Assembly: GCF_964355755.1 (NCBI RefSeq)
Contig: NC_092679.1
Span: 4,340,001 to 4,404,000, forward strand
DNA length: 64,000 bases
Direction of reading: 5' to 3'
Origin: Antedon mediterranea
Lineage: Eukaryota > Echinodermata > Crinoidea > Comatulida > Antedonidae
Position numbers and translations under genes: made by a program. Below the pieces are notes generated by a model. That model was not told the DNA's origin and made no database searches. It worked only from the letters and a program-made list of their open reading frames with translations. Each line of letters begins with the position of its first letter. The first letter of the stretch is position 1. Positions 76 to 63,826 of the stretch are shown one piece after another.

Positions 76-1351
76 ATAATATCAAAAATGACAATGATGA
101 ACAAATAGATGGACTGTCCAACACTAAACTAAAGTCGTCGTCGATTTGCCCACCCATCACCATACCATTGTCATCTGATGAGTTGCGATTGGTTCGTGGC
201 TTTCGTGATAAGTTTACAGAAATCGGTCTACAACTGAAAAGCATTGATGAAGACTCGGTGCGGGTATCGAGCGTGCCAGCGTGTTTCGTTGAGCATGACG
301 TAAGCGAAATGAGGCATGGACGCAAACCTGTCGCAGACACGGTTGTTGAAGTAAGTTTTTGGGTTATGTATTATTAGCCACAAATTGCATGGTTATATGA
401 AAATGAACAGTAAAAACTATCTATCTAAAAACACCTTTATGGCACAAAAATACCTTGCTTATTGTCTATATCTAAATACTAATTTTTTGATCTTTACTTT
501 TTTTAGACACTGATAAAGGAACAACTGACTTTATGGACCCAGACATTGGGCGCAGCGGGTACCTTGCCTAAAACAGTTACCAAGGTTCTAAATTCGCAAG
601 CTTGCCATGGTAAAATTTCATTTGCACATATTTTGGTACTAGATAGTTGATTCAACACATGTGTATGTACAGTAACGTGTGTGTGTATTTACAGTATTAG
701 AACGCATTGTGGGGAAATGCCTATATAAGGTGGAGGGGGAATTTTGTTAGGTCCCAAAAATGTCCCCTTAATAGGATATTAATATTTTTTTTATAATGGT
801 TGCAATTAAATCCACTTTTGCAATCCCACCATTTTGATTAAATAGAATATTCAAAAAATAATCAAGCTTTATATCTATATTTTGTAGGGGCTATCAAATT
901 TGGCGATGCCTTGACATTATCAGCATGCAAGAACCTGATAGGTGACCTCGCTCATTGTGATCTACCGTTTCAGTGTGCTCATGGTCGCCCTTCACTCATG
1001 CCTATCTTGGACTTTAACTTGATGAGATCAGTTTCAGATTCTGAGGTTTGTTGCATGATACAGTATTTTAAAGACTTTTATAGTATAGGGGTTTTACTCA
1101 TTTGGATGAGCCATAGATATACTAGTCTTATTGAACTCAATAACAAATGTTTGGTTTGTAGAGTGTCCAGTGGACTGCATTACAAACATATAATGATAAT
1201 CTTATAGAGGGGGCTGTTACATTTATCAATAGCTGCTACACTCTGCACAATATTTTTTTTACAGCCTCCAAGAAAACCGAGCCTTTGGAAATTGAATAGA
1301 ACATTACATTGTGAGAATGAAACATTAATAACTAATGATAAACCAGATTAA
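76..1351 (+). CDS. MLH3: MLH3 DNA mismatch repair endonuclease, C-terminal part (5' truncated by window)
   Basis: Four exons can be joined: 76-350 (enters in phase 1), 507-609, 888-1045 and 1265-1351, with TAA at 1349-1351. All junctions are GT-AG and the frame stays open. The product resembles the C-terminal dimerisation and endonuclease domain of MutL-gamma subunit MLH3. Visible family motifs are [13 protein letters not shown] followed by HGR in exon 1, ACHGAIKFGD across the exon 2/3 junction, and [10 protein letters not shown] in exon 3. The last is the MutL Cys-x-His-Gly-Arg-Pro metal-site element. The final exon ([12 protein letters not shown]) matches the short MLH3 tail. In known MLH3 the DQHA(x)2E(x)4E metal motif lies just before the first residues seen here, so it should be in the exon left of the window. 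MLH3 pairs with MLH1 and nicks DNA in meiotic crossover resolution and repair (family knowledge). The assignment is strong; only the missing 5' part is unknown. Confidence 0.92.
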
Positions 1352-3227
1352 TATTGTGTGCACTGAACCATGAAGTTATATTGGTCCCTGGATGTGACTG
1401 GTGAACCATGAATACATGCAATTTATGGTCACTGGAGCTGAAAATGCAATGAGTGCAAAAATAATAACTTTGTTTTAATTTGAGTACTGTAGTTAGCTCA
1501 GTAAAAATGCAATAACAACGTGCAATTATATTATTCTTTATTGCCAAATGTATAAGAGGATCACTTATTTTCAATAAAAAATTACATAATTTTAATATTA
1601 CGTATGTTTTGTGTATAAATAGCGATTTATGATGCGCTATGCAGCTATTCAGTCATTATGTGCATGCTCATGTGATCCATCTCACATTTTTTATCCCTAC
1701 ACTACCCCCTAAAGTAGCAACTTCTATGACTCGCGTGTACATATACTATCAGAGATAGTTAGATTTTTTATATTACTTCTCGCGAATCCCAGGTTCCACC
1801 TACACCCCACTGTTAAAAAATTTATCATGTGAAAATTTGAATAAGAAACTACTTTTAGCCAGCCTGTCTCAAGTTTTTGCCTCGCTTTTTATTCTTCATA
1901 AAAACAAATTTAAATCAAGTTTGTTCAATAGATTGCGATCTAGTTTCCTTTTGACGATTTAGATAATAAATTGGTGATTGCTAATTGATAATGCTAATTT
2001 GCTTTACATAGTACAGTACTTCCTTCTGTTTTATGGCGACATAGTTGTTTGTTTTATCAAAAAAAATACCGGTTTCACTTATGAGAATATATCTGCTAAT
2101 AATATGTTTAAAAAAAAAATTAAGTACAGTATCTCAAGTACGGTACTTAATTTGTGGGTGCCTATACTTGCTAAAAATACAGGTCTGTGAAAAGGATTAG
2201 CCTAGGTTCAATATGAATAATTATAAAATAATTTTGGAATAAATTGAATGCGTTTTTTTACTCATAACAATCTTTATGCAAACATAGTGAGTTTTCTTGT
2301 TATTGTAACTATATAAAAATCAAATTTCTTTTTGAACAACCAAAATGACGATGAAACGCCAGTTGAGAATGAAACCTGATAGGTTTCGAAACGTACTGTA
2401 AGTTCGCTTATACTATTTTTGGTGGTTCAAAAAGAAATTTTATGTAGTAATACCTATTCCACAACCAGATGAAATTCTTCCAACATATAAAAATCAAGTT
2501 TTGTATCTTATTGAGGGCGCACTTTATGGTTTGTATTATTTTCTCTCTGTATTTACAATTTTTGACCAACAACTGGGACCAGCATTGTTTTTTGGGCATG
2601 GATGATATGCATGGTTAATGTTTGTTTAGATACGGAATATCTTTATTAATAGATTATTAAAAGGTAACATTATACCTGGAGAAGACTACGGGGTCTATTT
2701 GACGTGGGATTTTATTTAACTGGAACCAGCAATTTCTATCTAGATCACCGTCCTCTCTCTACTACCACTTCCGCGGTGGTACACAACAGAGAACCACCCC
2801 AGCCCAGCACACTGACAAGACAAGGCCACCGGAGGTGGTTTCGATTTCCTTATCCGCCACACATCAAAGGACGGTTCGTACGGTCGTCTGCTGCTTTAAC
2901 TACGAACCTCCTACAATAACAAGCATCTATTCTCGCTTTTTCAAAGAATTTGGTATGAAATCATAGCTCCATATTCATTATGAGGTAAGCTCGTTTTGTA
3001 TTATATTTTTTTAGGCTAGATTCCATATGAAATTAAATTCATCCACACTTACTTCACAATACTCTGAGTCTGATCTAGTCCATGCATTGTTTTAAATTGG
3101 GTCACATTCCAGTCTGGTGGTGGTTTTGCTGTATCCTATATATTGGTATTTTGACATCCCCACCCCCCTCTCCCTACCCACATATTATATGTTGAATATT
3201 TTAAGATGTGCATACTAATAACTAGGC
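1352..3227. other. MLH3 3' flank and intergenic DNA
   Basis: AT-rich sequence downstream of the MLH3 stop. An AATAAA at 1573-1578 could serve as the MLH3 poly(A) signal. No coding exon or RNA gene is supported. A GC-richer island at about 2700-2930 stands out and is listed as a finding; its 71-codon open frame has no recognisable motif. Confidence 0.5.
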
Positions 3228-4020
3228 GGATTAGGCCAAGTTGAGCCGCCGACAAGTTGAGCCGCCGCCAGAAGAACGTTATTTTCTATGAAACGCCAAA
3301 TGCTTACTTTCGCCGGTGCTCGTTTCTATTTAATAGAAGTTCTATTTATATTACTTATTAGATATAACGATGTATATTCCAAAGTTTATATATCACGGTT
3401 TTTAGTATATATTATTAAATATTATAATTAAAGAGAAATAATTATGAATATCTGACTTGTAGATTTAAAAATATAAGGCCTAAAACATGACCGAAAATGA
3501 TCGTTTTTAGCCAAAAATGACGTAAACATGTTGCCCCCTCAGGCGGCGGCAGTTGTATGAACTAGGCCTACTCCATTTTTCGGTAAAATAATTGCATAAA
3601 ATCACCGTCTTTTAGTAAAATATTTTGTGTATTAACATTGTAAAATTTAATAAAATATGATATTAAAAGATATAGTAAATAAAAAATAATAATTATTTAA
3701 TCTCATTCGAAGAATATCAATACTCTATTAGTCCTGAAAAACAAGGTGATTTTACGTGGTAGACATACACGCGAGAAAGATTAAAAACAATTAAATTATT
3801 AAATATGACTACTTTCCTTTGCTGTGTATGGCGGTTCAAACCAACACAATCGTAGTATGTAATTATTATTTATTTTCATGACACAATAAACGTAAAGACC
3901 ATGAACTTTTGTACTAGGACACCACTCTATCACTACGCGAAATGTCGTAAAAGACGCACTGGGCGTTTCATAGAAATTACCGGCGGCTCAACTTGTCGGC
4001 GGCCCAACCGGTCATATCCC
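3228..4020. mobile_element. Non-autonomous DNA transposon (hAT-like MITE) with 8-bp target duplication
   Basis: A 793-bp element whose two ends are imperfect inverted repeats. Each end holds two copies of a block like AGTTGAGCCGCC, followed by TTTCTATGAAACGCC. The 3' end reads GGCGTTTCATAGAAAT then CGGCGGCTCAACTTGTCGGC. The element is flanked on both sides by the identical 8-mer AACTAGGC (3220-3227 and 4021-4028), a target-site duplication. An 8-bp duplication is typical of hAT elements, though a few other superfamilies share it. There is no transposase frame, so it would depend on a partner element. The interior is AT-rich with one further GGCGGCGGC patch near 3543. Confidence 0.85.
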
Positions 4021-4028
4021 AACTAGGC

Positions 4029-7000
4029 TAGGCCTATCTATGAATTGTCCCATCCTATATTGATATTAATTATTAACATGACATTATGTATTTGTTTTAT
4101 AAAGTAAAGTTTTTAAATACCAAAGAACTTTGATTAAAAGGTTAACTTCACTCACTTCACTTTTGATGATGCATTCATTAGAATTGATTTATTAATTAGT
4201 TACTGTATTTAATTACAAGACAAGTGGAGTGCGAGTCTTTAGTTAAATGATTTAATTTTTCATTGGTTGTGTTTGTACACATGAATAAAAGGTACGGAAC
4301 TATGTCAGGAAATCGTTGGCGTTTATTATTGTAGTTGACGTAGGTGAACCAGGAAGCTGTACATCGTCCTTAAACCAGTTACGTAGGGGTGTGTTGGTAT
4401 AAACTCAAAACTTCTCTGAACAGCATGATAAACTATAGGGTAGGGGCATTGGAGCTGTTTTGAGCAAATAATCAGCAGATCTACTGTAGCTCTTTATAAC
4501 TTTTCACCGTTTACAGAATGCCAGCAGTGGGAGTAGATCAATGCCAGTTGTTTGCGAGTTACTAATACTAGTCAAATAAAACTTACTAGCTCTAAAACCA
4601 GTCAGTATGGTAACACAGTACTACTTGTTTGTAGAACCATTTCATCTGTGGTATTGAGTTTTTTCTGAAACACTTACCACACATACCAGAACCAATTGAG
4701 CCTACCGTTTTGGGTTTTCTTTACAAAACTCCCCTCGCACCACGTACCCCTCCTTCCAATCCCCCTTGGTCTCATGTGAGCATACTGCAGAATCCACCTA
4801 CCATGCAGTATTCACTGGTTTTCCGACTGAAAAAGTACCTCCCTGAATCCACCTGCCGTCATCGTGGATTGCCAAAATGAGCTTAATTGTACTCGCATAC
4901 CTTAACAGCTGGGCCCATCCTAATGTCATACCTTCTCTGTTGATAGATTATCAACTATAATCAACCAGTTGTTACACAGTTCTAAGGTTATTACTCTATA
5001 CTTGTTATTAAGTGATAAGAAATGATGTACTTTTAAAAATAAATAATCTGTATAATGCTAACCATAGCTAGAAAAAAGTAAAGTACAGTACATCGAATCT
5101 ATGTCTAGCGATGGTCGCTGGTCATTTTTTAAATATTCTTTTGAGAATTAAGGGTAAGTGTGGGGTTATTCACCCATAGAGACGCCTCTGAATATAGTAT
5201 ACAGTATGTCTACTTTTATTTATTTTTTTTACGATAAAAATATTAGAAAAACATATTACTTATTTATTTCTAAAAATAAAGGATTTTATAAGAATGCATC
5301 CATGCATGCATTACAGTATAAAATCTACATTTCAAAATGTATTTTTTTCAAGGATATTTCCGACATATTTAAAGAATCTTTATCAAAAATGTGTTGGTGC
5401 ATAGCTCAGCACAGTAATAATTCATACTACAGTAATATTTCCTAAATATGATCTTTGCATTATTTTTCAATTGAAAATTATTTGACACAGCCATCAATAC
5501 CTGACATGACCTATTGACCCTGAGTTAAATTTCTAAATTGCTGTCTTTTTATATCCAAATAAAACCTGCCAGGATCACGAGATTTGCACCTTCGCAGTCG
5601 TGTTTAGCTACAGGCTAGGAACACTTTAACAATGTTGGGAATATTATATTGTAGGTCGTCTGAAAAAAATATTATTTGACTGGAAGGCTCGGAAAATAAT
5701 CAATTCAAACTATGTTATTGTCATAGTATAGTCCACAACAAAAAACTTACAACAAAAATTCATTATTAATTCAAATATGGTAGTGATGTAGACAGAGTTT
5801 AAGGTAATCTTTAAATTACTATACTGTTTAGAGAAGGAGTGGATGTACTGTAGAGTACATCTGAAACATATTTTGGTCCATAATTAGAATTAATTTGGCT
5901 ATGTCCTGCCTATAGTCGCAATGTTATAGAAATCCCTGCACTCTAATTACAGTATCTTGTTGCAGTGTATTCAAATACGGTAAGTGTAATACTACAATTG
6001 AAAGCGGTTTCTTATTGGAGGAAACATTCTATTAGATAACTGACGATCATTAGGACGAGAGAATAAACCAATAACACATACAACAATAGACTTATTTTGT
6101 GAAGGGAATATCCCTTCACAAAACCAAGGTCTAAGACAAAGATACGAATCACTGTTATTTGTCAAATGATCATTGATGTTAGGATGTTTAAATTGCTTAA
6201 AATCAATATATTCAATACTCAGACCGTTTAGTGTGAGCAATTTCTTCCCCAACATTAAACTGTGAAAATTAATTTATTTTCTCGAACCGTGTATTGATGA
6301 TGTTTTTCTGTGTACAGTACATTACAGTATTTAATATTGATGACAATTTTAATGTACTGTAAAATGTATTTCCAGCTTTAAATGAAAAAGGGATTTTATT
6401 TTCGCACCAATTATTTATGAAATCTGCATCATCAACGTATGACTGTTGATTGTTGTCGATTTTCAGAATTCCAAAATAGAAGCATAAAAGGGACTAGGAT
6501 TTCTGTATGCATTAAACATTAAGTACTGATTTAAATTAACAATTAATTATTTAAGTTGGAAAATACCTTTCAAAATAACTATTAAAAACTCAATTTGACT
6601 TGTTTTATATGATAATAATTGTAATAAAGTTGTATCTTTTTGTATCTGTCATGTGTTGTATAACAAAGAGCAGTTTTCATACAGGTAAATAATTGGTGAG
6701 AAAATAAAATCTCTCTTTTTTATACACTTTAAATTGCCTTTTGCAACATTAACTGTCAGTGTTACTCTACTGTACATCAGTATGCTGTTTTGGGGTTTAA
6801 AAATAAACATTATTATTTCACAGCTAAATAAACCTGGATCTTATCAATATCCTTATCTCTGCAGCACTGTCCACTCCCAATATCCTCTGATCTTTGTTCT
6901 ACAGTAGTAACAATAGTTGTTGACCTTTGACATTGTTTACATTCATCTCCACACGTGGCGTCATAAATTATTATTTGCCTTCAAGTGCAAACACTACACA

Positions 7001-8314: not shown

Positions 8315-9042
8315 GGTTTGGATCCTGGGTAGAGCTTCAGGATTGGTTCTGAACTTGCATGTTAGCTCATTTTGAACAGCTTGTGGTGGTGGTCTAAAAT
8401 TATGCTGGTAAAATACAACATGATTTCCCCCAAAGCACTTAGCTTTACTGTACATATATCAATTAGCAACCAAGGGCAGGCCCAAATAGTATAATATATG
8501 TACATTAAATTTGGTTTATTCTCCAAGCCAACTATCCCAAAATGAACCTACCATCTAAATGTTGAATTTTTTTAGTGGAAAATCTGGTTATTGACATCCA
8601 CATTCTTTGGATTAAAAATTATCAAAAGCAAATTGTTCAACAAAATGTTGATATGGAAAACAGCTGCTTAAAAAAAGTTTTTCCTTTATATACTTTTGTT
8701 TAAAAGAAAATAAAGTTATTTGTTAGTTTTCCTGTTACATTTATAAAGTTTGCTTTTAAATGCTTTTGAACGACAGTATTGTATTGCAGATTTTCTCTGT
8801 ATGCTTCAGTATTAACTTGTGTTTCTTTAGGTCAGCTGGTTCAAACTTAACAATACACCAGATTACCAGGTCCCCATACTTTATATTGTTCTTTGTATTT
8901 TCCTATTTGACTTTAAATCTTCTATTCAATGATTCTGTAAACATGATTTTTAAATATTATATGGAACATGTGTATTTCCTTGTTATTTTGTAGATAAAAT
9001 ATATTTTGATTTTATAATAATATTAACATTTTTATTGACTTA

Positions 9043-9876
9043 GGGCCTGTTTCTATAGAGCAGAGAATACGGTTTTGAATACCGTTCTTTTCAAGAACCG
9101 TTTTTTCTTGCCAGCAGAAATGGGTCCCCACAAAAAACCACAAAAAAGAACCGATCTTAAAAACGGTTTCAAAAACCCCAATTGATTGCGGTTTCGATCG
9201 CAAAGAACCGTTCTGAAACCAGTTTCCACGGAGCAATTTTTAGCTGCAACATAATCGCAGTCTCAATTTGACCCCAAAAACTGAACTCTGCAGTCTGCTG
9301 CACTGGGACGATTGCGGTCAACTCGCAGTCAAACCCGCGCGATAGGACCTAGGCCTAAGTCATTTTTATTTCTCTAGATAGTGAACTAAAAAATGTTGAC
9401 CGATGCCATTACGAGGTTCGTAAAAAATATGTGAAGGGAAGAAGATGAGGGGACTTGTCGGGAGTCGGAAGAAAGACTCACGTAGGCCACATGTTTTTAA
9501 GAATATTGTAAAGCGTGTGAAAGCTAGACGAGTTCAACTTGACAATATCAGAGGGTGCTACGTACCTATACTTTAACCAAGGACCACAATAACGTTTCAG
9601 GTAATAATTCCCCCTTCTATGATGAAATGGATGCTATTTCTTGGGGATCGCGCTATGCGAAAAAAAGTAAACATGACCTCGATCCAATCACGCTTCCGCC
9701 TAACGAACTGCATTGTGGTGTATATAATGACGTCATTCATAACGAACGCACATGAACGAAACCGGTTTTATTGAAGTAAAAATTGAGCTGCAACGCGATC
9801 TTTATTTATAAACAACAGACGAAACCGGTTTCCAAAAAACCGTTCTTTTTTTTTATTTTTCAATAGAAACAGGCCC
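9043..9876. mobile_element. DNA transposon relic with GGGCCTGTTTCTAT terminal inverted repeats
   Basis: An 834-bp interval starts GGGCCTGTTTCTATAGAG and ends CAATAGAAACAGGCCC, a clear terminal inverted repeat. Inside both ends are many copies of AACCGTTCTT-like or reverse-complement words, as expected of subterminal transposase-binding repeats. GGGCC-type ends resemble PIF/Harbinger elements, but a 3-bp target duplication is not obvious, so the superfamily is unsure. A 66-codon frame at 9555-9755 lies inside and has no recognised domain. It is less AT-rich than its surroundings. Confidence 0.75.
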
Positions 9877-10104
9877 ACAGAGAATTATAGTGCAATAGTT
9901 GGCATTACATCATAGATCTATTTGTAAAGAGCAGTGGTTTATTTTGAGTTGTTGGGTTATGATATTATACAGTATAACTATTTTCGATTTTTGAGCTGGT
10001 CATTTTCAAGAACCTATGTGTCCGTGTCTTTTTTTGTCTGTGACTGTATTTTTTTTTCCACGTTTTTTGTGTCCGCATCATCATTTCCTTTATACAGTAT
10101 TGTG

Positions 10105-12722: not shown

Positions 12723-12997
12723 ATGTCTATAAAAACATCTGTTTCAATCAAAGTGTTAAAACCGCAGCGTACATTTGGTAGTATCGGTGGAAGTATACAC
12801 TGTTTAAGGAGCGTTGAGGACTTGAGATGTCACGTAAAACAAGAACCCTTTTATGAAACTATCAGGCCTAGCAATGATTATGAGATCCCAACTATTTCGT
12901 CTTACTACTACAAGAGCGGATCTCTTCAGGGGCTGGATAGAGTTGGTTATGAGTCTGTGAAAAAGTGGAAACCTCTGGAGTCTAGGATGTTACCAAG
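12723..12997 (+). CDS. ENAH: Ena/VASP candidate alternative first coding exon 1
   Basis: An ATG at 12723 opens 91 codons plus two bases and stops at a donor (CCAAG|GTAGGG). Phase 2 matches the acceptor of the common EVH1 exon at 25625, where the split codon would become Ser. The peptide starts MSIKTSVSIKVLKPQRTF and is Ser/Tyr-rich with a short YYYKSGSLQG stretch. It has no recognised domain. Joined to the common exons it would give a 551-residue protein. The call rests on ATG, open length, donor and phase. No transcript was available. Confidence 0.6.
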
Positions 12998-14366
12998 GTA
13001 GGGTACGACGACTATATTAGGTAAGGAGGGGTATACATATACCATGGACCAAATTCACCTTACATTGCAACTACCAATTTGCTTGTTAGATTTTGATTTG
13101 AAATTTTTAAATCTTTGCTAATCTTTAAATTTAAAAAAAAAATTTTTGTTTAGTCTAGCAGTCTTTGTCTAGTACATTGATCTGCCAATTCAATAGACGA
13201 GTACTAATGTCTGGCAAAATGCATTTCAAAATTTAACTAATAACACGTATATGTTTTAATAAGTTACTTATTTTTCAAGATTGGGACATGTACCGATCCT
13301 GCTGTATTGAGACTTGTTTCTTTTTTAAGTATGTAATTTGCAAGTTACTGTTGGATGGGTATGGAAAGAAAAATTGAGTTTGCAAGTTCAGCGAGGTAGC
13401 TTGCTTCACTAGTCTGTATTTGTTTCAAAGCCAATGTGGTATAATAATGTTCATAATAACGATTATTTAGTAATCAACTCGTACCACACATATTTATATT
13501 AATGGTTGCAGCAATTATGTATGTTTATCTGCAATTAATTATGAATCAGTTGCTTGTATATCCCATCATCTGCACCTAATCCATACCCTTGCAAATAATC
13601 TCCAAGTTAATCCGTCAAGATTGGATTTTTTAGGCGAGTCTGTCAAACTTTGACAACACCGTCCAAAGACCTGACTTTCGCTACGTAGAATTTGACGATT
13701 TCTACATTTGGATCAAATCGTTGTTGCAAATAGCAAAGGTAGTGATAATCATCTACTGTACGTTTAGGCTGAGCGTGGCCTCGTCTGGTGGCTATAACTG
13801 TTTATACAACTCTTCCCAGAATCCAAAAACAAAGCATGTGTGGTGTGATTAGAAAATGTTACATTGTTTGGAGTTTCCTCCATTCACTGGAACAAATATA
13901 CTGTAGTCTCAGTGTTGAAGTAGTTTTAGTTTAGTTTCTGTTGAGGAATTGTTTATTTTCAACTAAAGAATATAGAGGAGTTTATTGGTGAAAACCAATG
14001 AGACAATGTGCTCTTTATAAATACTGTATTACTCAAATAATAAGATTGAAACCTTTTATTGTTAATAATAATAATTAAATCTAATCGCCTATTTCTTAGA
14101 ATATGACACTGCCGTATAATAATGAAAAAATTCTGTTGAAGAAAATGAAAGTACTAATATATAATGGCAATAAATAACATCATTGTAATTACAACTCTAA
14201 TGTTGTCATTTTTACTGAGAATAAAGTGTTTATATACTTGGTCTTGGTTTCATTTGACACTCTCATCCGCGAGTGCACAGTTCATAAATCAGTTGCGTTG
14301 TTTGATAAAATCTCCGGGTGTGAAATGATGACATATTATTGATATCAATCTAAACATTGATTCGAA

Positions 14367-14413
14367 ATGAAGAAAGGTAAACGACCAATACCGCCACCAC
14401 TGCCTTCTTCAAG
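14367..14413 (+). CDS. ENAH: Ena/VASP candidate short alternative first exon 2
   Basis: An ATG at 14367 gives 15 codons (MKKGKRPIPPPLPSS) and two bases before a GT (TTCAAG|GTTTGC), again phase 2. Splicing to 25625 would give a basic, proline-rich leader ending in Ser and then the EVH1 domain, 475 residues in all. The frame hits a stop four codons past the donor, so it is open only if spliced. The donor is weaker than the others and the exon is tiny, so chance is not excluded. Confidence 0.35.
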
Positions 14414-17400
14414 GTTTGCGTAAATTTTTTAAACTTTTTTAGGTTCATTTTAGGAGCAATTTTTTTATAATTTGATCTGAGAAAAGGTGTGTTTTTCAGG
14501 AAAACAAAACTGGTTTCCTTGTACAGTAACTGCAGATGTATAGGCATTTTTTATTTTAAAAATTACACAATATTTTTTGCGGCACGTACAGCTCTGTGAA
14601 CATTATAAAATGATACACCAAATTATTTTTTTTTTTGGTATTTATATTTGTACTCAAGCTTAACTAGAAATTAAGAAAGTTCGGATTAGGCCCTCCATGG
14701 ACCCACGGCAGCCAGCAGTGTACCAGATAAGCACACCGGTAGGCGATCCCCTACTCTTTTCCTATTGTCAATACAGTATACTATAAAATATGTATTGGTT
14801 CAAATGTATCCCATTACTTTTAACTGATATTTCGGATCTGTTTTTGCTGGATTGCTGGTTCTGGTAACTTATTTACAGATCATTAATTCTTTAACCCAGC
14901 TTGCTAGTTTATGTTTACAAAGCCAACAACTTTGTCGGGACCTTAAAAACACATTTGATATTGAAAGGTGTTGTATTGTCTATGTCATGTACTGTAAAGA
15001 TTATAGAAAAGGTTTTTGTTTGTGCTGTGACATGTATATTCCTATTTATGATACTGTATAAGGTTATTTGATTTACTTGGTTGATTGAATGGGTTTTTTA
15101 TTCATTGCTTTTGTACTGAAAAGTATTTTGAGTTGTTACTGTATGTACTAAAGCTTTTCTATGAGGTTGTTTGTTGAATAAACTTTATGTTTTCAAATTT
15201 ATAAATAGGGTCTGCCAAAAAGTAGTGGGGACAATTTGTTTCCTTCTTCACAATATAGAGACTAAAAACGTGCTGTTTCATGTCCGTAAAAATCAGTTGT
15301 GTCAATAGCTCTTCAATATAAGATGAAGATTTTTTAAAGTGCCATTTTCAACCTAGGTTGAAGGTGCTGATTTCTTTGTACTTTCGTATAATTTTGACCC
15401 ACAGTAACCATGGTGGCACAGAAACCATGGAATACATCGAGGGGTTTGCTAGCATTTCATAGATTTAAAAATGTTGGGAACCACTGATTTGAAAGGAAGA
15501 AGAGATCGAGGAATGGGGAGTAGAGGAGGGATGTACACAAAATAATACACACAATAATACACACTGTAGGTTTGAGAATTACAATATATCATAATTAATA
15601 TAGCTGTCAATACAGTATTTTATTAAATAATATGACCTTTGAACCAGGAAGTGTTTTGACATATCCTGCACAAGGTGTGGTGATACAAATATACAGTTAC
15701 TTTGAGGAAACTATAAATTAATTTCTAGTATTATGTAATAACATTTGGCAATGTTTTGCAAGCAGGATACTGCTAGAAATACAGGGGAAATTTATAGATA
15801 ATTTTCTGAGAAGGAAATAAATTTAATTTTTAACTTTTTAATAATAATTGCAATGTTTTCCAGAAGCATTACATTTTCTGGGGGTTGGGGGAAAAAACGT
15901 ACAATAACATGTCCAGAAAACTAAGTTTCTAAAATGTGTTTTTTAGTTGTTACCACAAATCATTATCTGTTGTAATATGAAAGGTTTGAGAAATTTGGCA
16001 TTGCACTTTATAAATTTGTTTCAGTGCCTTAAAAAAATAATCACAGTTACTGAACCCCTCCTTTATGATACCACTATTCAAGGGAGATCCTAACAAGTTG
16101 AAATATATATTTTAACCCAACAGCCAACCTCTTATTTGAGGACATCCCTAGTAAAAAGGAGAAACTTTTAATGTTGGGTCCTGAAGGTGTCCTCTTAATA
16201 GGATAGTCATATTTCCGGTAAGGCTAATTTTCCTTGTGTGCTTATGCTTATACTATTATAACTGAAGGTATAATTTCAATTAAGGTATAGTGTGTATAAT
16301 AGTAATTCTTCATTTACAGTATGGTGTTCATATGGAGATCACAAGCACCTGTTCTTGATGACTTCATACAAATTTCATTACTAACTTTATGTAAATAATT
16401 AGCATAATTAAGCAGCATGACGAGATTAAGTAATTTAAGATATTACTTATAACTACAAACATATGTATTCTTATTATTAGTAGGTTAATTTTAGAAACAT
16501 GGAACTCGGAAATTAGTGGTTTAAATGTTTCAGTATTAAGATATGGTATTTACTATTTTATTCAATGTTTGTGGTTAAAAAGAGAGCATGTTTTTGACAA
16601 AATAACGATTTATAAAGTTGATTCTAATCCGAGATTTATTTTTTATTTTCTAGTTTTTAATAATTTACAGTATAATTATTTAGTGATTTTTCATATTTTC
16701 TTCTAAAACAATTTGACCAAAATATTTTATAGTACTAATATTTAATAGTACTGGTAATTATTTAAATAAGAATGGTAAACCATTTCCTTTGTTTTTCTTT
16801 TGAAAAGACTAATTATATTTTTGCAGATGTTTTTATTAAATATTGTCTCACAATTAAAAGGCTTCTGTGTAGTTGGGTACGTATGTATAACTAGATAAGG
16901 TGAAGCGATTCATGGTCATATTTTAAGTTGGGTACATCGCGACGAATATTTCCAGCAGTCGGGTCTATTCATTAATATCATATCCTTTAATTTCCTGAAA
17001 ATGTAGTCTTCCTTTCAGTGTATGCTCATCAAATATAGAAATATGTAATAATGATTAAATAAAATAGATTTTATGTACGGTATCAAAAGTGTCTTTTAAA
17101 AACTTTTCTTTTCAAAAGGAAATTATAGAAAATAGTAAATATAAAATATATTACTAATTGCTTCGTTAACTATGTAAATGAATGCATATGCTTTGTACAG
17201 GTATATGAAACATGAGTTGAGAAATGTTTAGAAAGCAAAAACATGAATTATTGTAATTACTTTCATTTTCTGTAACATTATAAATGTAATGTTATTTCAC
17301 AATGTTTGCTTTCTTTCTAATTTTTTATAGATTATAGATATTATTATTTTGACAATTAAAAATGTTTAAAAATGTAATTATTAAAATTTGTAATTAATTT

Positions 17401-17698
17401 TTTTTTTTACAGTAATTTAATTATTTAAAATGTCCTTACTGTATCTGTAAAAATCTTCTGATAAAAAGTTTGATTCAGAAATTCCCACAGGAAGTGACTT
17501 CACTGATCGTGATTAGTCGTCTGTGACATCAACGAACAGAGAGCGTGTAATAGTCACAAAATCGTGTCATATTTTAACGGAACAACAAAACGTGGAACTA
17601 TGGGAAATATTAGTGGCAGTAAAATAATTCAGGAAGATTGGTCATACAGTAGTCGAATCATAATCTTCGCTCCGGTTGTTGTCTACCAGAATTGAATC

Positions 17699-17847
17699 AT
17701 GGCCGTCTCTACGACAAAGAGTCTTTACCAGTTGTACAATATTGACCGTGCACCGGATTTATTAAGTGGATACAAGTCATCGTTACGGAACCCCGCTTTC
17801 CCGCCTGCCTTCACATTGGAGCGAAGTCAAAGCTTGCCAAGCCTATG
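17699..17847 (+). CDS. ENAH: Ena/VASP candidate alternative first coding exon 3
   Basis: An ATG at 17699 opens 49 codons plus two bases up to a donor (CCTATG|GTTGGT) in phase 2; the split codon becomes Cys at the 25625 junction. The peptide begins MAVSTTKSLYQLYNIDRAPD and includes AFPPAF and RSQSLPSL. RSQSLP fits the RSxSxP form of the mode-1 14-3-3 binding motif. AFPPAF is a degenerate relative of the FPPPP ligands that EVH1 binds. Both readings are inference. The isoform would be 509 residues. The 200 bases upstream are GC-richer than the neighbourhood, as expected near a start site. Confidence 0.65.
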
Positions 17848-18648
17848 GTTGGTGTTTATTGTAGTCGATAGATAAAACTGGATAAAGGATTGATTTATTA
17901 AAACATTATTTTATCAACAGTAGGGAAGACATTAAAGAGATATTAATGTTGTTACAAATGTATTATATTTAAATGTATGTATTATAAAAATAGTATAATT
18001 TTTGTTGTAATTTTCCTATGATATCAACTTTACTAAATAGGGGATTGGTGCTAGTTGTATTTGCCCTTGTTCCTTTTGAATTCCTTTTGTCCCATGAATG
18101 TGATTATAGTGACATATTTCTCTATTTTTATTTCTTGGAAAGTGTGCCTTCAACATTAGTATCCCAAATGAAGGGTTCTACCTGTATTTATTAATTAATT
18201 AATTAATTACACAAACCTGAAGAAAATAATGTCTTTTATTAAATTTAAAAGAATTTGTAATTGGTAATGTAAGCAAGCATTTGTTAACATTAGAAAATTT
18301 GGGGGAAATTTACAGAGATGTATTGTTTATTTATTTGTTTATCTTCAGAGTTTATTAAGAATGAATTCTTAAGGTATTTGAAGATAATGGAGAACAAATA
18401 AATATTGTACAGTAGTTTGATGTATTTACCTGTAAAAAATATTACCAATTATAGACAATTTTAAGATCAAAAGAAACCATAAAATTGTTGACAACCCAAA
18501 AGGGAATTCCATGTTTGTTACTGTACATTCCTAAATCTCATCTCTATCTGATTTTGTTTATTATTTATTTCCTTTATTGCATCAAGTAAACAGTGATAAA
18601 GTTGACATAAATATTTAAAAAAATTATCAAAGAGTATAATAATGTATA

Positions 18649-19436
18649 ACACAAACCAAACAAGTTACTAAAATATATCATAGTCCACAAATCAGTCTTT
18701 CAATGGCCATCATAGTACATACAGTAACACAAACCAAACAAGTTACTAAAATATATCATAGTCCACAAATTAGTCTTTCAATGGCCATCATAGTACATCC
18801 AGTAACACAAACCAAACAAGTTACTAAAATATATCATGTCCACAAATCAGTCTTTCAATGGCCATCATAGTACATCCAGTAACACAAACAAAACAAGTTA
18901 CTAAAATATATCATGTCCACAAATCAGTCTTTCAATGGCCATCATAGTACATCCAGTAACACAAACCAAACAAGTTACTAAAATATATCATAGTCCACAA
19001 ATCAGTCTTTTAATGGTCATCATAGTACATCCAGTAACACAAACCAAACAAGTTACTAAAATATATCATAGTCCACAAATCAGTCTTTTAATGGCCCTCG
19101 TAGTACATCCAGTAACACAAACCAAACAAGTTACTAAAATATATCATAGTCCACAAATTAGTCTTTCAATGGCCCTCATAGTACATCCAGTAACACAAAC
19201 CAAACAAGTTACTAAAATATATCATGTCCACAAATCAGTCTTTCAATGGTCATTATAGTACATACAGTAACACAAACCAAACAAGTTACTAAAATATATC
19301 ATAGTCCACAAATTAGTCTTTCAATGGTCATCATAGTACATACAGTAACACAAACCAAACAAGTTACTAAAATATATCATAGTCCACAAATCAGTTTTTC
19401 AATGGTCATCATAGTACATCCAGTAACACAAACCAA
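18649..19436. repeat. 78-bp minisatellite, about 10 copies, in the Ena/VASP 5' region
   Basis: Head-to-tail repeat of a 78-bp unit (ACACAAACCAAACAAGTTAC... ending in CAATGGCCATCATAGTACAT). Some units lack two bases (CATGTCCAC instead of CATAGTCCAC), giving 76 bp. Because 78 is a multiple of three, the plus strand stays open over several units (18935-19258 and 19246-19473). This is a by-product of the unit length and not evidence of a protein. It lies between candidate first exons 3 and 4. Confidence 0.95.
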
Positions 19437-20318
19437 AAGGGCATCACAATTTGCTTATCATAACTCAGTTTGATGCACGATAAAGATTATACCATTGGTT
19501 AACTTACTTTATTTACACTTTATATGAATTTTGGCTAATTACCTTAATTATTGTGATAATTGGATACCATAGAAGGGGTGATTACTGTGGTTATTGACAG
19601 GTCTATACTTTTAATTGGGACAGGCAATCGATCAACTACGCTTTTCAGAGAATTATTGATTTTGCAAGTGAGCCCTCTATAGTTGATAAAAATAGTGTTT
19701 CAGTATAGTATGTTATGCAGTACATACGGTGATTATAACGATATGTTTTTTCACCACATTATTTTTATGCTTTTATTCTATCACTTTTTCGGGTTAATAT
19801 ATTATAACCCCAGCTTTGAAATTATATGTATTCCCCCTTTTAATTTATCCAAAAATATTGCATCCAATTTTCAGTAAACTTTAATTAATTAATAATTGAT
19901 TACCGGTATTACTATTTTTATACCTGTTTATTAATTTTTTTTTTGTGTAAATACTTTCAATTGTTTTAATTATAATTTTATATATGATAATAATTTACGT
20001 TAAATTTTAAATTTAAAAAAAATCACGTTCATTAAATGAAACAAAACACTTAGGAATGCAAATGATAATTATGCTAAAAAAGCGTTCATGCATGAACAGA
20101 AACGGAAATCAACCAAGTTGAACCGAGCCGGCAAGTAACATTATTATGCTGGTTTCATTACACTGTAAAGAATATGTGATTTAGAGCAATAAAACTTATA
20201 ATAATTGGCCTAGAAAAAAGTATAATCATACATAGGATTACTGTACAATTTTCTGTCTGGGTACTGTATAATTTATACAGTACTATTTTTCAATTGTTCG
20301 TCTCTCGGATCGGCTTGG

Positions 20319-20416
20319 ATGATGCATACTGCTATGGATGATAACGTTTCCTTAAATATAATGTCAACTGATGATGGATGTGAATCGGTACCAGAACAAT
20401 GTTTTTGTCAAGACAT
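20319..20416 (+). CDS. ENAH: Ena/VASP candidate alternative first coding exon 4
   Basis: Tandem ATGs at 20319 and 20322 open 32 codons plus two bases to a strong donor (GACAT|GTGAGT), phase 2; the split codon becomes Ile at the EVH1 exon. The peptide MMHTAMDDNVSLNIMSTDDG continues CESVPEQCFCQD and is short and acidic with three cysteines. No domain is recognised. The isoform would be 492 residues. The donor is the best of the five, and phase agreement supports it. Confidence 0.6.
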
Positions 20417-20524
20417 GTGAGTTTTTAGAATATAATGATAATTTGCTATGGTATTGATTTACCTTTAATTTTAGCTAATTGTGTTGTTTAATTAATTATC
20501 TATATAAATTGTATTTATTGATTC

Positions 20525-20592
20525 AATCCTGTTATGGGCGACTTTGGTCGCTGTTGGATGAAGATGAAATAAAATTAAAAAAATAAAAAATA
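20525..20592 (+). mobile_element. SINE 3' tail fragment
   Basis: CAATCCTGTTATGGGCGACT followed by GCTGTTGGATGAAGATGAAA and an A-rich end. This matches, in the other orientation, the tail of the tRNA-derived element at 26257-26468 (ATCCTGTAATTGGCGACTTA ... GCTGTTGGATGCGTATAAAA). The head is missing, as expected of a 5'-truncated copy. Confidence 0.6.
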
Positions 20593-20772
20593 ATTGTATT
20601 TTTGATTTAATCAAAATGATGTTTTTATCTCACATTCGTTAATTGCCAATTAAAGAAAAACTGTAAAAATTTACAGAAATTTGGCTACTACCATTTTTTT
20701 ATGTCCTTATATTTAGTAAGTTCTTGTGTGATCAGTTTTGTGCATTTACTGTACTTCATTAGAACCGAAACT

Positions 20773-20843
20773 AGGCGGACAAACCCCCATGTCCAGCGGA
20801 CAAACCCCCATGTCCAGCGGACAAACTCCCATGTCCAGCAAAC
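20773..20843. repeat. 21-bp tandem repeat, three units
   Basis: The unit CGGACAAACCCCCATGTCCA(G) occurs three times with one base change. GC-rich against an AT-rich background. No function is visible. Confidence 0.85.
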
Positions 20844-20880
20844 GTCTCTTAAAATAATTTTGATAACCAAAAGCATTGTA

Positions 20881-21072
20881 GACTGTCAATCCCGAACACC
20901 TTTGGGCTAACCAAATACGGTCTGTTTTTCTGGAAAGTCTGGTATTTGGAATGTGTTTTTAATGCTAAAAATGAATTTGGGACTGTTTGGGCTTCTAGAA
21001 AAGTCTGGTATTGGAAGTATTTCCTATTTTCAGAGAGTCCTGTATTGAGAGAGGAGAGGATTGATTGTACCA
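20881..21072. mobile_element. MITE family 2, copy 1
   Basis: Contains CCGAACACCTTTGGGC, AAAGTCTGGTATTTGGAATG and GAGTCCTGTATTGAGAGA. In reverse orientation this matches the element at 31040-31229 over most of its length. The ends are degenerate inverted repeats built on a 'CTCTCCAATA' word. No coding frame. Confidence 0.7.
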
Positions 21073-21417
21073 CATTTTTTTAACCAGTAATTTGACTTTG
21101 GAAACCTAATGAATATGCCTTGGATAAATTAGTTTTTCATGGCATTTACAAGATCGTATTAAACTAAAAAGCGTGACTCATTTGCTCAGCATTTGTCATT
21201 GATTAGTAATATTAACACATTAGATGTTAATTAGTTCACTAGGGAACTATTCCAGTCTGCTACTTCTGCTGCTCTAGGCTTGTATTATTTATTCATAGAT
21301 TCATAGTCTTTTCTTTTGTTTGTCTTTACTGCCTTTGTACTACTGTAACAGTATGTTTGAAAAGTACTGCTTAATATAAAGAAATGAGAATTATTTTGTT
21401 TGGATATTTCTTCATAC

Positions 21418-21500
21418 TATAAAGTCTGCACTATAAATCTTTATGTGACCAAATGTGATGTGCCCAAATATAGACATGATGATGTCATATCAAGGGAAGA
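21418..21500. mobile_element. MITE family 1, copy C (partial)
   Basis: A decayed left half: CTGCACTATAAATCTTTATG, then ATGTGATGTGCCCAAATATA and GACATGATGATGTCATATCA. The right arm is absent. Confidence 0.65.
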
Positions 21501-22769
21501 GAATTACAGTAGGGGTAGCTGGTTAGGCCACCTCTAAATTTGTTTATTTATACAAACAAACAATGGAACACTATGATAAGTTCAACACAATTCATTTTAC
21601 AATTGTTATGCTCTGTTCCTGGATATACCACTAGCAACACCTTGTCCAAAAGTAAATTCATTTTTTTGTAAAAATTTTTTGGTAAAAATTGTTTTATAAA
21701 ATAATATACTGTATCACTGTACAATAAGAAAACATAAATATTTAAAATGAAATGAAAAAATACTGTACTATTGTGTAGTATAAATTTGATTTCATCTCGT
21801 TACTATTATTATTTCTCCATCATGATATATGAAGTTGTGAGACGCTTTTGTAAATTTTATAATATTGTACATGCTATGATATTATAAATGTTACATATGT
21901 CATGATATATTTTGATTAATTAAGAAGTCTACCAGTCATCCATAGAATTTTTCAGCTGTTAGCGATGACATCATACCTAAAAATTGATATTTGATATGCT
22001 CCATATGACATTCCCTTCAATTAATTAAATGAGCCAATGTGTATAAGATATCACCTATTAGTTACATTTAAGATTTGACAGATTTGACAATAAGAAAATT
22101 GTAATTTAAAAATAATGTTAAAAAATGTATCAAAATTATAATAAAACCAAGTTAACCTTCAAATTCGTATCTACCCTCTTCTACATTTAGTGCTCACTTT
22201 TTAGTGGCCCGGAGAAGCGCAAGCTCATTGGTAAATGAAAACCTCTTTACATTATTATTTAAAGGACCACAAAATAACAGAATAGTGGTCTTTATTTAGA
22301 AGCACACTGGGGTTTTGGCATGTTTTAAGAATAAAGTCTAACATTCTTCGAATTTGATAAAACTCCTTGTTACCATCTGCGATAATCACTTCTGACATAT
22401 CCCGATACTATTGATTCACATGTATTTAATAAAATTATTTTCTATCGATACTCATAATCACCCCCGACATCCCCCTGACAATGTTAGTATCACTGTTGTC
22501 TTCAATTTCTGAATTATACAAATCAACAGCTGAAGATGACGTTTCGGGACATAGAGGGAGTGGGAACAGCTGATAGAAAAACAGGTGACGTCACTTATCT
22601 TGAGGCGAAGTGTGTGCCAGTAATTATTAAATTACGAGACAGGATCTATGATGACATAAGAACTAATATGGCAACGATGTTGTGACCCCTAGATTGGTTG
22701 AACCGCAGGTAAATATTTCAACTTGTGCTGTGCAGTCGATGCTGAATCGTTTGTTAGTACATTTACAAG

Positions 22770-23599
22770 ATGTCTTTTCTACAAGTTAAGCTGCAATCTC
22801 CGGAAAATAAAGATCGAAATGTTCTGAAAAGGTACTCTTCTACAGATATGGACGACGTTGAAATTATACCGGATGCGACGGACGACAACATCGGTAGTAA
22901 TACCGATAATCAAGATAGTTATTGTTCAGAATTACCGACAGTTGCACATGGAAATTATGCTTTTGGTGCACAACAATCAGTTGAAACGAATTGGAAAAAC
23001 GTTGACTGTGATACTGAAGATCCATTTAATGATAGCCAAGCTGTACATCAACAGTCGCAATTATACAATGCAAACCCGGAATTTTACTCCCATACGGAAC
23101 CAATAAATAATCCATGTAGCAACGTTTACACTTCTCAAGATGATATATACCAAGATATTAATGCTGCGCCACAATATGCAAATTATTCACCTGATATTCA
23201 TAATAATTATCATCACTATAGTAGACAAAATCCTGCTGGAGAAGTTGCCAGGGTAACAAATGTCACACACCAGGAAGTAATAGGTGAGCCATGGAAACAA
23301 AGTCCGGATCATATTGAGGAAACATCGGGAAAAAGACTGTCAGATGGACAAGTAATTAATGTGTGGTTAGATCAGGAAGTTAATAAAAGAGGTGGTGATA
23401 TTATTAATGCAGTTGATCTATCAGCTTCGTCAAACCAGTTTTACCCACCAGCAGATGTAACAGATCCACAAAGTATACCAATTATGAGTGAATTAGATGC
23501 AGAGAGTATGCAGCAGCCTGACATGGATTTGGATGATACTAGGCTAGAAAATGAAGAAAATGAGGGGGAGGGTGACACAGCAGGCTCGTATAATCCAAG
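22770..23599 (+). CDS. ENAH: Ena/VASP candidate alternative first exon 5: long disordered N-terminal extension
   Basis: An ATG at 22770 opens 276 codons plus two bases to a donor (CCAAG|GTAGTG); the stop TAG is formed by the donor itself, so the frame ends where splicing would begin. Phase 2 fits the 25625 acceptor, the split codon becoming Ser. The peptide (start MSFLQVKLQSPENKDRN) is rich in Asp, Glu, Asn, Gln, His and Tyr and has no hydrophobic segment or known fold. It looks intrinsically disordered. It ends in an acidic patch (LENEENEGEGD). An upstream small frame at 22535-22684 would lie in its leader. The isoform would be 736 residues, much longer than vertebrate VASP. It could instead be a separate single-exon gene ending at the TAG; the phase match and location favour a first exon. 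Confidence 0.65.
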
Positions 23600-25624: not shown

Positions 25625-39197
<13,573 letters not shown>

Positions 39198-43131: not shown

Positions 43132-46073
43132 TTATTAAGCGTTAATAAATTATTGTTTGTAATAATCCATTTCATAGTTATATATTTCAATACATCAAAT
43201 TACACTGTTCAAATATGCACTTTTTAAACTTATAGATTTCATGCTGGGGGCTTATTTGTATAAGTGCAGTACTTAATTTGAAAAGGTTCATTTCTGTGTC
43301 AATTTGTACCATACGCAATAAATTTTTGCCAGAATAGTACTTTTTTTTTCAAATGTTCCATTATTTTATGTGAATGTCTTGATTCTGTTGATGTGGTGTT
43401 CTTAATGTTTTAATATCTGTTGTGACATGTATGTGTGGTTATCTTTATACTGTAATAATCAGTATGTATGATGTAGTATTATTCTAATTTTAAAACTCCT
43501 ATGCACTATGCACACACCTAACTTTCAAGTAACTTCCACTTATGAGAATTAAGTGCAGTGAGGTTGAATAGCAGAATTAACTTTCATCCAGTTGTTTAAA
43601 TAGTATCTTACTTTACCCATCCAATTTCCTGGACTTTCTGCATTCTCACTCCTGAAAATGATCGAAGGTCACTGATCGAAATTTTGAAAATTCGACAGTT
43701 CTTTTCAGAACTATTTATTTTTTTATTTTTCTGCAACCTGATAGATGGTTTTTATCATTGATGAAATATTTACAAACCATACAAAGTCGCCCCAAAACAA
43801 AGTAGCCCCGGCACAGTCCCCCCCATCGCAAAGTCGCCCCATTACAAAGTCGCCCCATCTTTTATAATGCCTAATCCGCCCCTATGGTGAACTGCAAACT
43901 TGACATCAACAATTCCATTGTGTTTACTTTTCTTGTATATTATGTGCAATTAAAAATTTATTTTTATCTAGTAATTATTCTGAACTCCCCCCTGTGACAA
44001 TTAACAGATATTTTGTATTGTAGTGTATAAAGCTTTAAAAGAGCATGGCTTGTTAGGCATAATAAGTGAGAGCAATCAACCGGAACAATCATGCGATTCA
44101 AACAAAGAAACATTGGCCAACAAAAGACACACTCAATCATATGCTTAGCAAAGGCAAACAAAATCAATGTTTTTATACCATAATATTCACACTCCAGGTT
44201 ACACAATGCTGAAATAATATCAAGGTAATTTATATCAATTAATAACATAAATCATCATTCGCTTATTCCTCTCTCTGAAATCTGGAAATAAAAAGCACAA
44301 AACTTTCAATATTTAATTAAAAAATATACGGTACATTTATTTATTTATTTATTTGGAATTACACCTTTAGATCGGTGGCACACTTAGCACAAAGGTGCAT
44401 CCTTCACAATATAAAATATAACAACAGAAAAGTAAAAAGGCAAAAGCAACTATCAACCCCTATCCTACCCCCCCCCCCCCCCACCTAATTTACATCAATA
44501 CATACAGTAGATCATTACTTTGCACAAATAAATACAAAACAAGATATAGAAAAGTGTATTAAATAAAATCACCTGACTAAACACAGGTTTTGTAATTTGA
44601 ATAAGTGTAGGCCTGATTCTCGAAAGACTACCAATCCAGAGCTGGCTAAAGTCGGGTTTTAGTCCACAACAATATATAGGTTTTTTTTTAAACAGTTATA
44701 ACATGGGGAAAAATAAATGTACAGTATTATTAATTATACCTCCATGGTTGTAATAGTCTGATTAAAACCATAGTTAATGTACTTCCACAATCCAACCTAT
44801 CAGCATTCATACAAATTGATATTTTAGGATATTAGGTTGTGTTAAGGTTGCTTTAATTTCCAGTGGTGTATTTTTGTTGTTTTCTCTTTGGTTTTGTAGA
44901 ATTTGTATATTATGAATGTACTATCTAAAATAAGGAAATGAAATAAAACAATTATGTTTACAATGTTACAAGTATACAAGTAAATAAAAACATAATTTTA
45001 GTTATTAGTAACAGTAGACCTAACAGTACAAACAATATAATGTACAAGATATTTTTTTATTGTCCTTTTTAAATTAAATGTAAAAAGTAAAATCTTCTCT
45101 GATGCTAAATGTTTATTTATAAAGGAATGCAATATCTTTTATACAGCATTGAAATACATCAATTATGATTAAAACAAATAATTAATAAAATTCTATTTCA
45201 TATTATTTATTATTGTTTCTACTAGCCTATTATAATTTATTACTTTTACAGTATTAAATAGTGAACACATTTCAGGTCCCCATATTTTTACTTTACACAA
45301 CGGAATATCGATTGATGATAATCAACCAATCATACATGGCGCAGTTCATATGCAAATATCTACTGTCCAATCAAATTCATTCCCGATATGACGGAACAGT
45401 TTTCCGTTACTCATCTTGTGTACGCGGTTTAAAATTAAACATAGGAAAAAGTATGATTGATATTTAACCTACAAACAAGGAAAATATAGATATTTGAAGT
45501 AAGAACAAATTTAATTATATTTTTTTAAATATTTATGTGTAACATTCACTTTATTAATCAGGCTAATAGCATTGTAAACTTGTAATAATTAATGTGAGTT
45601 GTTGGGCTATCGATCGTGAGCTAGGCTGGCAGTCACGACTTTAGTTTACCGACGACCGATATGCAAGAAAACCGACGACTTGATCTGTGTGAGTTTATTG
45701 ATGGTTAGGCCTAGACAATTTAAATTTTGTTTGGTTACTCTGGTGTTAATTTAACACAGTGTAGGCTAGACTTAGCTCTGTGATACCATACGATTACAGA
45801 GAGCTAGCATGCTGCCTGGAATGGTAGGCTGGGTGGGGGTGGGCGTGTGATAATTCATAATCAAATCATGTTGGTGGATGGATTGTATAAATGAGGCGGC
45901 TGGCTCTCGGAGTGCGATGATGTGTCATGACACGCGGAAAGGACAGGGTGGTCTTATGCAATAGGCCTAGCCTAGGCCTAGATATTATATAAATGAATTA
46001 AATTAGCCTAGGCCTATATAAGAATGAAATAAATTTTGTGTATCTTTTAGGCCTATTTTAGTTTATAAAAAAC
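43132..46073. other. Intergenic DNA and LBR upstream region
   Basis: Contains an (ATTT)n run at about 44338-44357 and a C homopolymer at about 44469-44482. From 45600 onward the sequence becomes GC-richer with AGGCCTAG words, as expected near the LBR transcription start. A probable 5'-UTR acceptor (TATCTTTTAG) lies just upstream of the LBR ATG. No core promoter motif can be named with confidence. Confidence 0.45.

Positions 46074-56525: not shown

Positions 56526-63826
<7,301 letters not shown>

Follow-up and report, generated by a model that had tools for sequence, protein, structure and literature searches.

Putative alternative leader exons ahead of the EVH1 domain in an Ena/VASP gene of Antedon mediterranea

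Judged by its sequence, the plus strand of the window (the whole 64-kb stretch of DNA analysed, in whose positions all coordinates are given) carries the 5' half of a single Ena/VASP gene. We consider it likely that this gene has a short start of the canonical kind at about 3 kb in addition to two to five intronic promoters and their leader exons, and that all of these starts share one EVH1 exon. At least two of the alternative leaders seem real.

Results

An Ena/VASP gene and its surroundings

Two plus-strand exons encode EVH1. The first (25625..25793) has a phase 2 acceptor, matches Pfam WH1 and finds its best PDB match in the EVH1 domain of Mena (PDB 1evh, E=2e-18); the second (27200..27371) matches WH1 with E=6e-19 and ends at a donor of 9.5 bits. 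They are followed on the same strand by a proline-rich exon, recognised from its translation, at 34640..35035 (left end approximate) and by the Ena tetramerisation (EVH2) exon at 38460..38590 (Pfam VASP_tetra, E=2e-12). An EVH1 domain close to those of Mena, VASP and EVL, a proline-rich middle and a C-terminal tetramerisation helix are all present, as expected of a member of the Ena/VASP family. In genome-wide searches, which covered the 354-Mb assembly (the window being positions 4340001-4404000 of its contig C10), the exon at 38.46 kb was the sole match of the VASP_tetra profile, and since this match is single, the gene is probably the only Ena/VASP gene of the genome. Further WH1 exons lie on contigs C9 and C11 and may belong to other EVH1 families.

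A MutL C-terminal exon opens the window (78-1300 region), upstream of Ena and on the same strand. Reading it by eye we take it to be MLH3-like; the gene continues at 887-1045, a segment with no Pfam match, and ends, again by eye, at about 1.05-1.3 kb. Downstream of Ena, also on the same strand, a lamin-B-receptor-like gene spans 46070-50620; its LBR tudor domain is encoded at 46.07 kb, and an exon of the sterol reductase type follows at 50.4 kb. LBR and ENAH are presumably neighbours in human too, and Ena and LBR may be an old gene pair. At the right end of the window (56727-62789), EGF-like domains occur in three open frames.

The stretch at 1.1-25.6 kb contains 144 open frames of at least 45 codons, 26 of them of at least 75 codons. 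A Pfam scan of 20 of these 26 longer frames between the MutL-like gene and EVH1, namely two leader frames and 18 others, gave no match at the cut-off; the frames outside the scan are 9015-9239, 18643-18867, 19216-19470, 20852-21079, 20853-21080 and 22828-23103. Two transposon-like elements, at 9027-9892 and 3222-4026, have inverted termini, 33 and 46 bases long and set 800 and 713 bases apart, and contain 44 and 36 CpG, respectively. A tandem array of ten copies of a 78-base unit, 96% alike, occupies 18647-19437, between the leaders termed C and D below; a CcmD match in this array (E=0.009) was below its cut-off and was rejected. An Rfam scan of the window returned 0 matches.

The EVH1 exon needs an upstream start in phase 2

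Behind TTATCTTACAG, the exon at 25625 opens with T/GCA GAG AAA TCA, the T completing a codon begun upstream. Phase 2 is the sole upstream phase that runs without stops through this exon, up to the donor at 25794; entered in phases 0 and 1, the exon shows a stop within 17 codons. The alignment to Mena EVH1 (1evh) begins already at residue 2 of the exon, which therefore has no start of its own. The sequence-only reading had asserted that EVH1 requires phase 2 and that no Met precedes the domain in this exon, and both statements held. As only phase 2 reads EVH1 and the domain is entered at residue 2, an upstream start is required. A second AG, giving an exon start at 25630, would let phase 1 enter EVH1; phase 1 does not occur among the five top-ranked upstream places described below.

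A candidate canonical first exon at 2980

Ordinary Ena/VASP genes have a short first exon, an ATG plus two bases, which is joined in phase 2. A candidate for such an exon (2690..2984, plus strand) consists of a 5' UTR-like stretch, the left end of which is a guess, and a micro coding part ATG AG at 2980-2984. Its border, ATG AG/GTAAGC (the slash marks the exon end), yields one codon and a phase 2 donor of 7.2 bits, and joined to 25625 it would read MSAEKSICQ... The 290 bases before 2980 are single-copy, have a GC content of 46% compared to 32% in the region, and include one short upstream reading frame with its ATG at 2955.

The whole window contains the pattern ATGAGGTRAG once, against an expectation of 0.19 for the two strands together, and among 100 whole-window shuffles 18 had it at least once; on the plus strand of 1.2-25.6 kb it was present in 1% of 300 simulations. 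Since the shorter pattern ATGNNGTRAG was not in excess in the window (3 compared to 3.8 expected), what speaks for 2980 is the precise AG together with its donor and its location. A printed primer for the short Ena isoform of the fly reads ATGACTGAGCAGAG after its linker. The predicted 2980 product has the form of ordinary Ena/VASP proteins, and the canonical start of the gene probably lies there, upstream of the leaders.

The sequence-only reading had set its alternative leaders against a short first exon carrying the canonical start. A candidate for such an exon is indeed present at 2980-2984, but it would not exclude the leaders, which would be additions to the normal start. The earlier list of starts was in this respect incomplete, lacking both this canonical-looking exon and a place at 22536 considered below.

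Five candidate leader stretches

The five ATGs and donors proposed previously were recovered at the same positions, all in phase 2, with exon lengths of 275, 47, 149, 98 and 830 (all 2 modulo 3); the donor numbers 12997, 14413, 17847, 20416 and 23599 denote the last exon base, with GT next. Open frames, donors, phase, single copy and order are properties read directly from the DNA. Since the stretches had originally been chosen in the wanted phase, ranking was made blind to phase: ATG-to-donor open stretches at 1.2-25.6 kb were taken in any phase, and each was given the sum of its coding score and its donor score, the latter having to be at least 0 bits.

All five stretches are on the plus strand. 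Leader A (12723..12997, 23.2 bits) has 91 codons and a split codon, starts with MSIKTSVSIKVLKPQ... and ends at the donor CAAG/GTAGGG. The weak candidate B (14367..14413, 6.9 bits) encodes MKKGKRPIPPPLPSS and has the donor CAAG/GTTTGC. The probable leader C (17699..17847, 15.9 bits) comprises 49 codons and a split codon, reads MAVSTTKSLYQLYN...ERSQSLPSL and ends at the weak donor TATG/GTTGGT; the probable leader D (20319..20416, 13.9 bits) has 32 codons and a split codon, starts with MMHTAMDDNVSLN... and has the donor ACAT/GTGAGT. Leader E (22770..23599, 84.2 bits), with 276 codons, a split codon and the donor CAAG/GTAGTG, lies within an open frame of 281 codons, the longest in the window. A purine stands at position -3 in four of the five leader ATGs, and likewise at 2980. 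By a donor matrix that was not trained on this genome, the leader donors score 0.0 to 5.9 bits, those of B (0.2), C (0.0) and E (1.1) being weak; all fall inside the range of 12 other donors of the window (-0.5 to 9.5 bits), which were assigned by eye, the exon at 34.1 kb being given none.

Genome searches with three of the leader peptides and with the DNA round the other two matched only themselves, a missing match in such a search being less than full proof of absence, and because they are single-copy the leaders do not look like transposon pieces. Pfam scans of leaders A, C, D and E and an NCBIfam scan of 22770 gave no match, and a PDB search with 22770 and 12723 found no credible relative (best E 0.12 or worse). 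Leader E is acidic and rich in Asn, Ser and Gln, with 50 Asp+Glu and 14 Lys+Arg among its 276 residues (net charge -36); leader A is basic (+5) and leader D acidic (-7). Ten motif patterns were scanned in the five leaders, amounting to 50 tests. The sole result that was borderline after correction was KR.S, present twice in 22770 as the PKA-type sites KRYS and KRLS (p=0.001). Before correction, the 14-3-3-type motif RSQSLP at the end of leader C (17699) had p=0.012 and PPLP in 14367 had p=0.025; significance was reached neither by LxRxxS in 17699 (p=0.17) and 22770 (p=0.18) nor by the acidic run in 22770 (p=0.13).

The best-scoring places share phase 2

The forward strand of 1.2-25.6 kb holds 51 independent places, of which five reach at least 13.5 bits: 22770 (84.2 bits), 12723 (23.2), 17699 (15.9), 22536 (15.5) and 20319 (13.9). 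All five are in phase 2, and the sixth place, 14697-14738 with 13.0 bits, is in phase 0. The chance of finding phase 2 in all of the five best places is 0.4%, and in five of the best six 1.8%. In 200 runs of simulated DNA of equal length the best place averaged 9.7 bits, with a maximum of 19.8, and places of at least 13.5 bits numbered 0.035 per simulation on average and never more than one. The score of 12723 was reached in none of these simulations, and those of 17699 and 20319 were attained in 1.5% and 2.5%. The score of 14367 is inside the noise, as simulations contain 3.4 places each of at least 6.5 bits.

Real DNA served as a further control. The forward intron segments 28.0-31.8 and 39.5-45.9 kb gave best scores of 3.4 and 9.4 bits, with 0 of 6 and 0 of 15 places at 13.5 bits or more. 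On the reverse strand of 28.0-45.9 kb the best score was 22.4 bits (one of 30 places), antisense of the proline-rich exon. The reverse strand of 1.2-25.6 kb yielded best scores of 14.7 and 12.0 bits, with one of 59 places at 13.5 bits or more, and as one reverse-strand place reaches 14.7 bits, the method can give non-coding DNA such scores. These two minus-strand ATG-to-donor stretches, within 4678-4929 (the 14.7-bit one at 4802-4929), are both in phase 2, GC-rich and single-copy, and no known gene was recognised in them.

On this evidence 22770 and 12723 are very likely coding. For 17699 and 20319 coding is only probable, because GC-rich DNA of the reverse strand attains 14.7 bits, and 14367 is doubtful as a leader. 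The earlier proposal of alternative first coding exons for one Ena/VASP gene is thus still the preferred interpretation for 22770 and 12723 and a probable one for 17699 and 20319, and is not borne out for 14367, which scores at chance level.

A more frugal reading would accept one alternative only, the long first exon 22770 beside the canonical 2980, with the other stretches being chance or non-coding promoter DNA. We regard this as unlikely. Its appeal is that 22770 stands isolated by its score, that 17699 and 20319 differ little from the best reverse-strand place of their region, the one being slightly higher and the other slightly lower, and that 14367 is noise. However, 12723 exceeds not only all simulations but every control place (the highest being 22.4 and the next 14.7 bits), and phase 2 is common to the five best places.

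Codon usage as a separate test

The codon-usage model was derived from 4653 codons of kinase loci in this genome; 29 of 30 loci were used, L026 being dropped for internal stops. As controls served two sets of random open stretches that begin with ATG and match the leaders in length. Because the flank control contains coding DNA, the non-coding model was rebuilt from window introns and the inter-leader space, leaving out the leaders. Codon usage alone had little power to tell leaders from random stretches: scores as high were reached by 37% and 62% of random stretches in the two sets for 12723, by 6% and 4% for 14367, by 9% and 27% for 17699, and by 7% and 8% for 20319. With synonymous choice alone, the respective shares were 37% and 20%, 4% and 5%, 7% and 5%, and 64% and 67%. 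For 22770, no random stretch of such length was found. Synonymous codon choice by itself gave no lift to A, D and E, and the per-codon score of the known Ena and LBR exons was no higher than that of the leaders.

Possible promoter signs before the leaders

In the 250 bases before the five ATGs the mean CpG count was 7.0, compared to 3.04 in the pool (p=0.005), and the excess persisted when corrected for C and G content by the observed/expected ratio (p=0.019); the pool windows overlap, so that these p values are rough. The excess comes mainly from 17699, 22770 and 20319, the count upstream of 17699 lying at the 95.6th percentile, and is weak at 12723 and 14367. A palindrome, TGACGTCA (22586..22593, plus strand), which we take to be a CRE-type site, ends 177 bases before the ATG at 22770. 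Two copies of it are found in the window with 0.40 expected, and two occurred in 8 of 100 shuffles, too often for the site to count as evidence by itself; the second copy, at 9728, lies within a transposon-like element. The palindrome is contained in 22536..22609 (plus strand, 15.5 bits), a single-copy stretch just upstream of leader E and absent from the earlier list. It may be an additional phase 2 place, or the promoter or 5' UTR of leader E.

Alternatively, the leaders could be internal 5' exons, joined by splicing to 5' UTR exons behind a single transcription start near 2.7 kb, which seems to us quite improbable, somewhat more so than a single alternative leader; as it is compatible with most of our preferred explanation, the likelihoods of the two need not sum to one. 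AG does lie close before some ATGs (17699, TTGTTGTCTACCAG; 22770, TTTACAAG), but acceptors, judged by eye and without scores, appeared fair only at 17699, and the CpG enrichment and the CRE-type palindrome before 22770 fit local promoters.

Very unlikely is the possibility that 22770-23599 and 12723-12997 are not Ena exons but belong, as exons or as single-exon frames, to one or more separate small genes in an intron of an Ena gene starting at 2980: a TAG directly behind the donor in both frames (CCA AGG TAG) would make each a potentially complete reading frame, and neither has a homology tie to Ena, but a phase 2 donor of the form AG/GTAG yields that stop by itself, partner exons of another gene were not recognised in the Pfam scan of 20 of the 26 longer frames, and the best places share the phase needed by EVH1.

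Discussion

According to the model that we favour, the most upstream start, at about 2.7-3.0 kb, would have a first exon coding only for ATG AG and would make plain Ena. We infer that the 22.6-kb intron behind this exon holds further promoters, each giving rise to a separate first exon, in which an ATG would start a distinct leader peptide and a phase 2 donor would be spliced to 25625. Use of E (22770) and A (12723) appears very probable, that of C (17699) and D (20319) probable and that of B (14367) doubtful. The actin-binding half of the protein would be unaltered by the leaders, which would place differing regulatory tails before EVH1: leader E would supply a long acidic tail with two PKA-type sites, and leader C one with a 14-3-3-type motif at its end. 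Probably A, C, D and E form unstructured extensions that would be phosphorylated and would bind partners. Taken further, the row could amount to a five- or six-way promoter switch offering no tail, a 276-residue acidic PKA-type tail, a 14-3-3-type tail or two or three others, through which each cell type would direct one and the same polymerase of actin by a signal of its own. To this extended version we give little credence.

Vertebrates have three Ena/VASP genes with spliced inner exons. The probably single gene described here could diversify its product by exchanging the N-terminal part, which adjoins EVH1, the address domain. Should the leaders be real, they would provide a ready-made series with which to study how residues in front of EVH1 alter the destination of the protein.

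ENAH, VASP and EVL of vertebrates share the order of EVH1, proline-rich part and tetramerisation domain seen here; their exon 1 codes only for the first residues, and EVL has alternative first exons. Longer isoforms of Drosophila ena have an N-terminal extension (UniProt Q8T4F7). Drosophila enabled (ena) with its short (PA) isoform is likewise one Ena gene, and the 'short' isoform of the fly has been published. The variety described for mouse Enah comes from exons 3a, 3b, 6L and 11a (PMC2898656), unlike the row of long leaders proposed here. Human NHSL3, a MENA/VASP partner of the Nance-Horan family, is reported to have three transcription starts with alternative first exons and isoforms that differ in partners and places (PMC11696792). 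The NHSL3 isoform that acts via 14-3-3 rather than MENA/VASP is also devoid of exons 5 and 6, so that the first exon by itself does not account for the difference, and NHSL3, being another protein, is only a partial model for the Ena leaders. Among the titles and abstract starts listed from the open-access literature, a scope that mostly excludes subscription papers, none described such a series of leaders for any Ena/VASP gene, and the isoform passages of PMC2045632, PMC3992947, PMC3994775 and PMC7076993 were likewise uninformative. Variation at the start of Ena is a kind of variation already known from the short fly isoform; a row of long leaders would be new.
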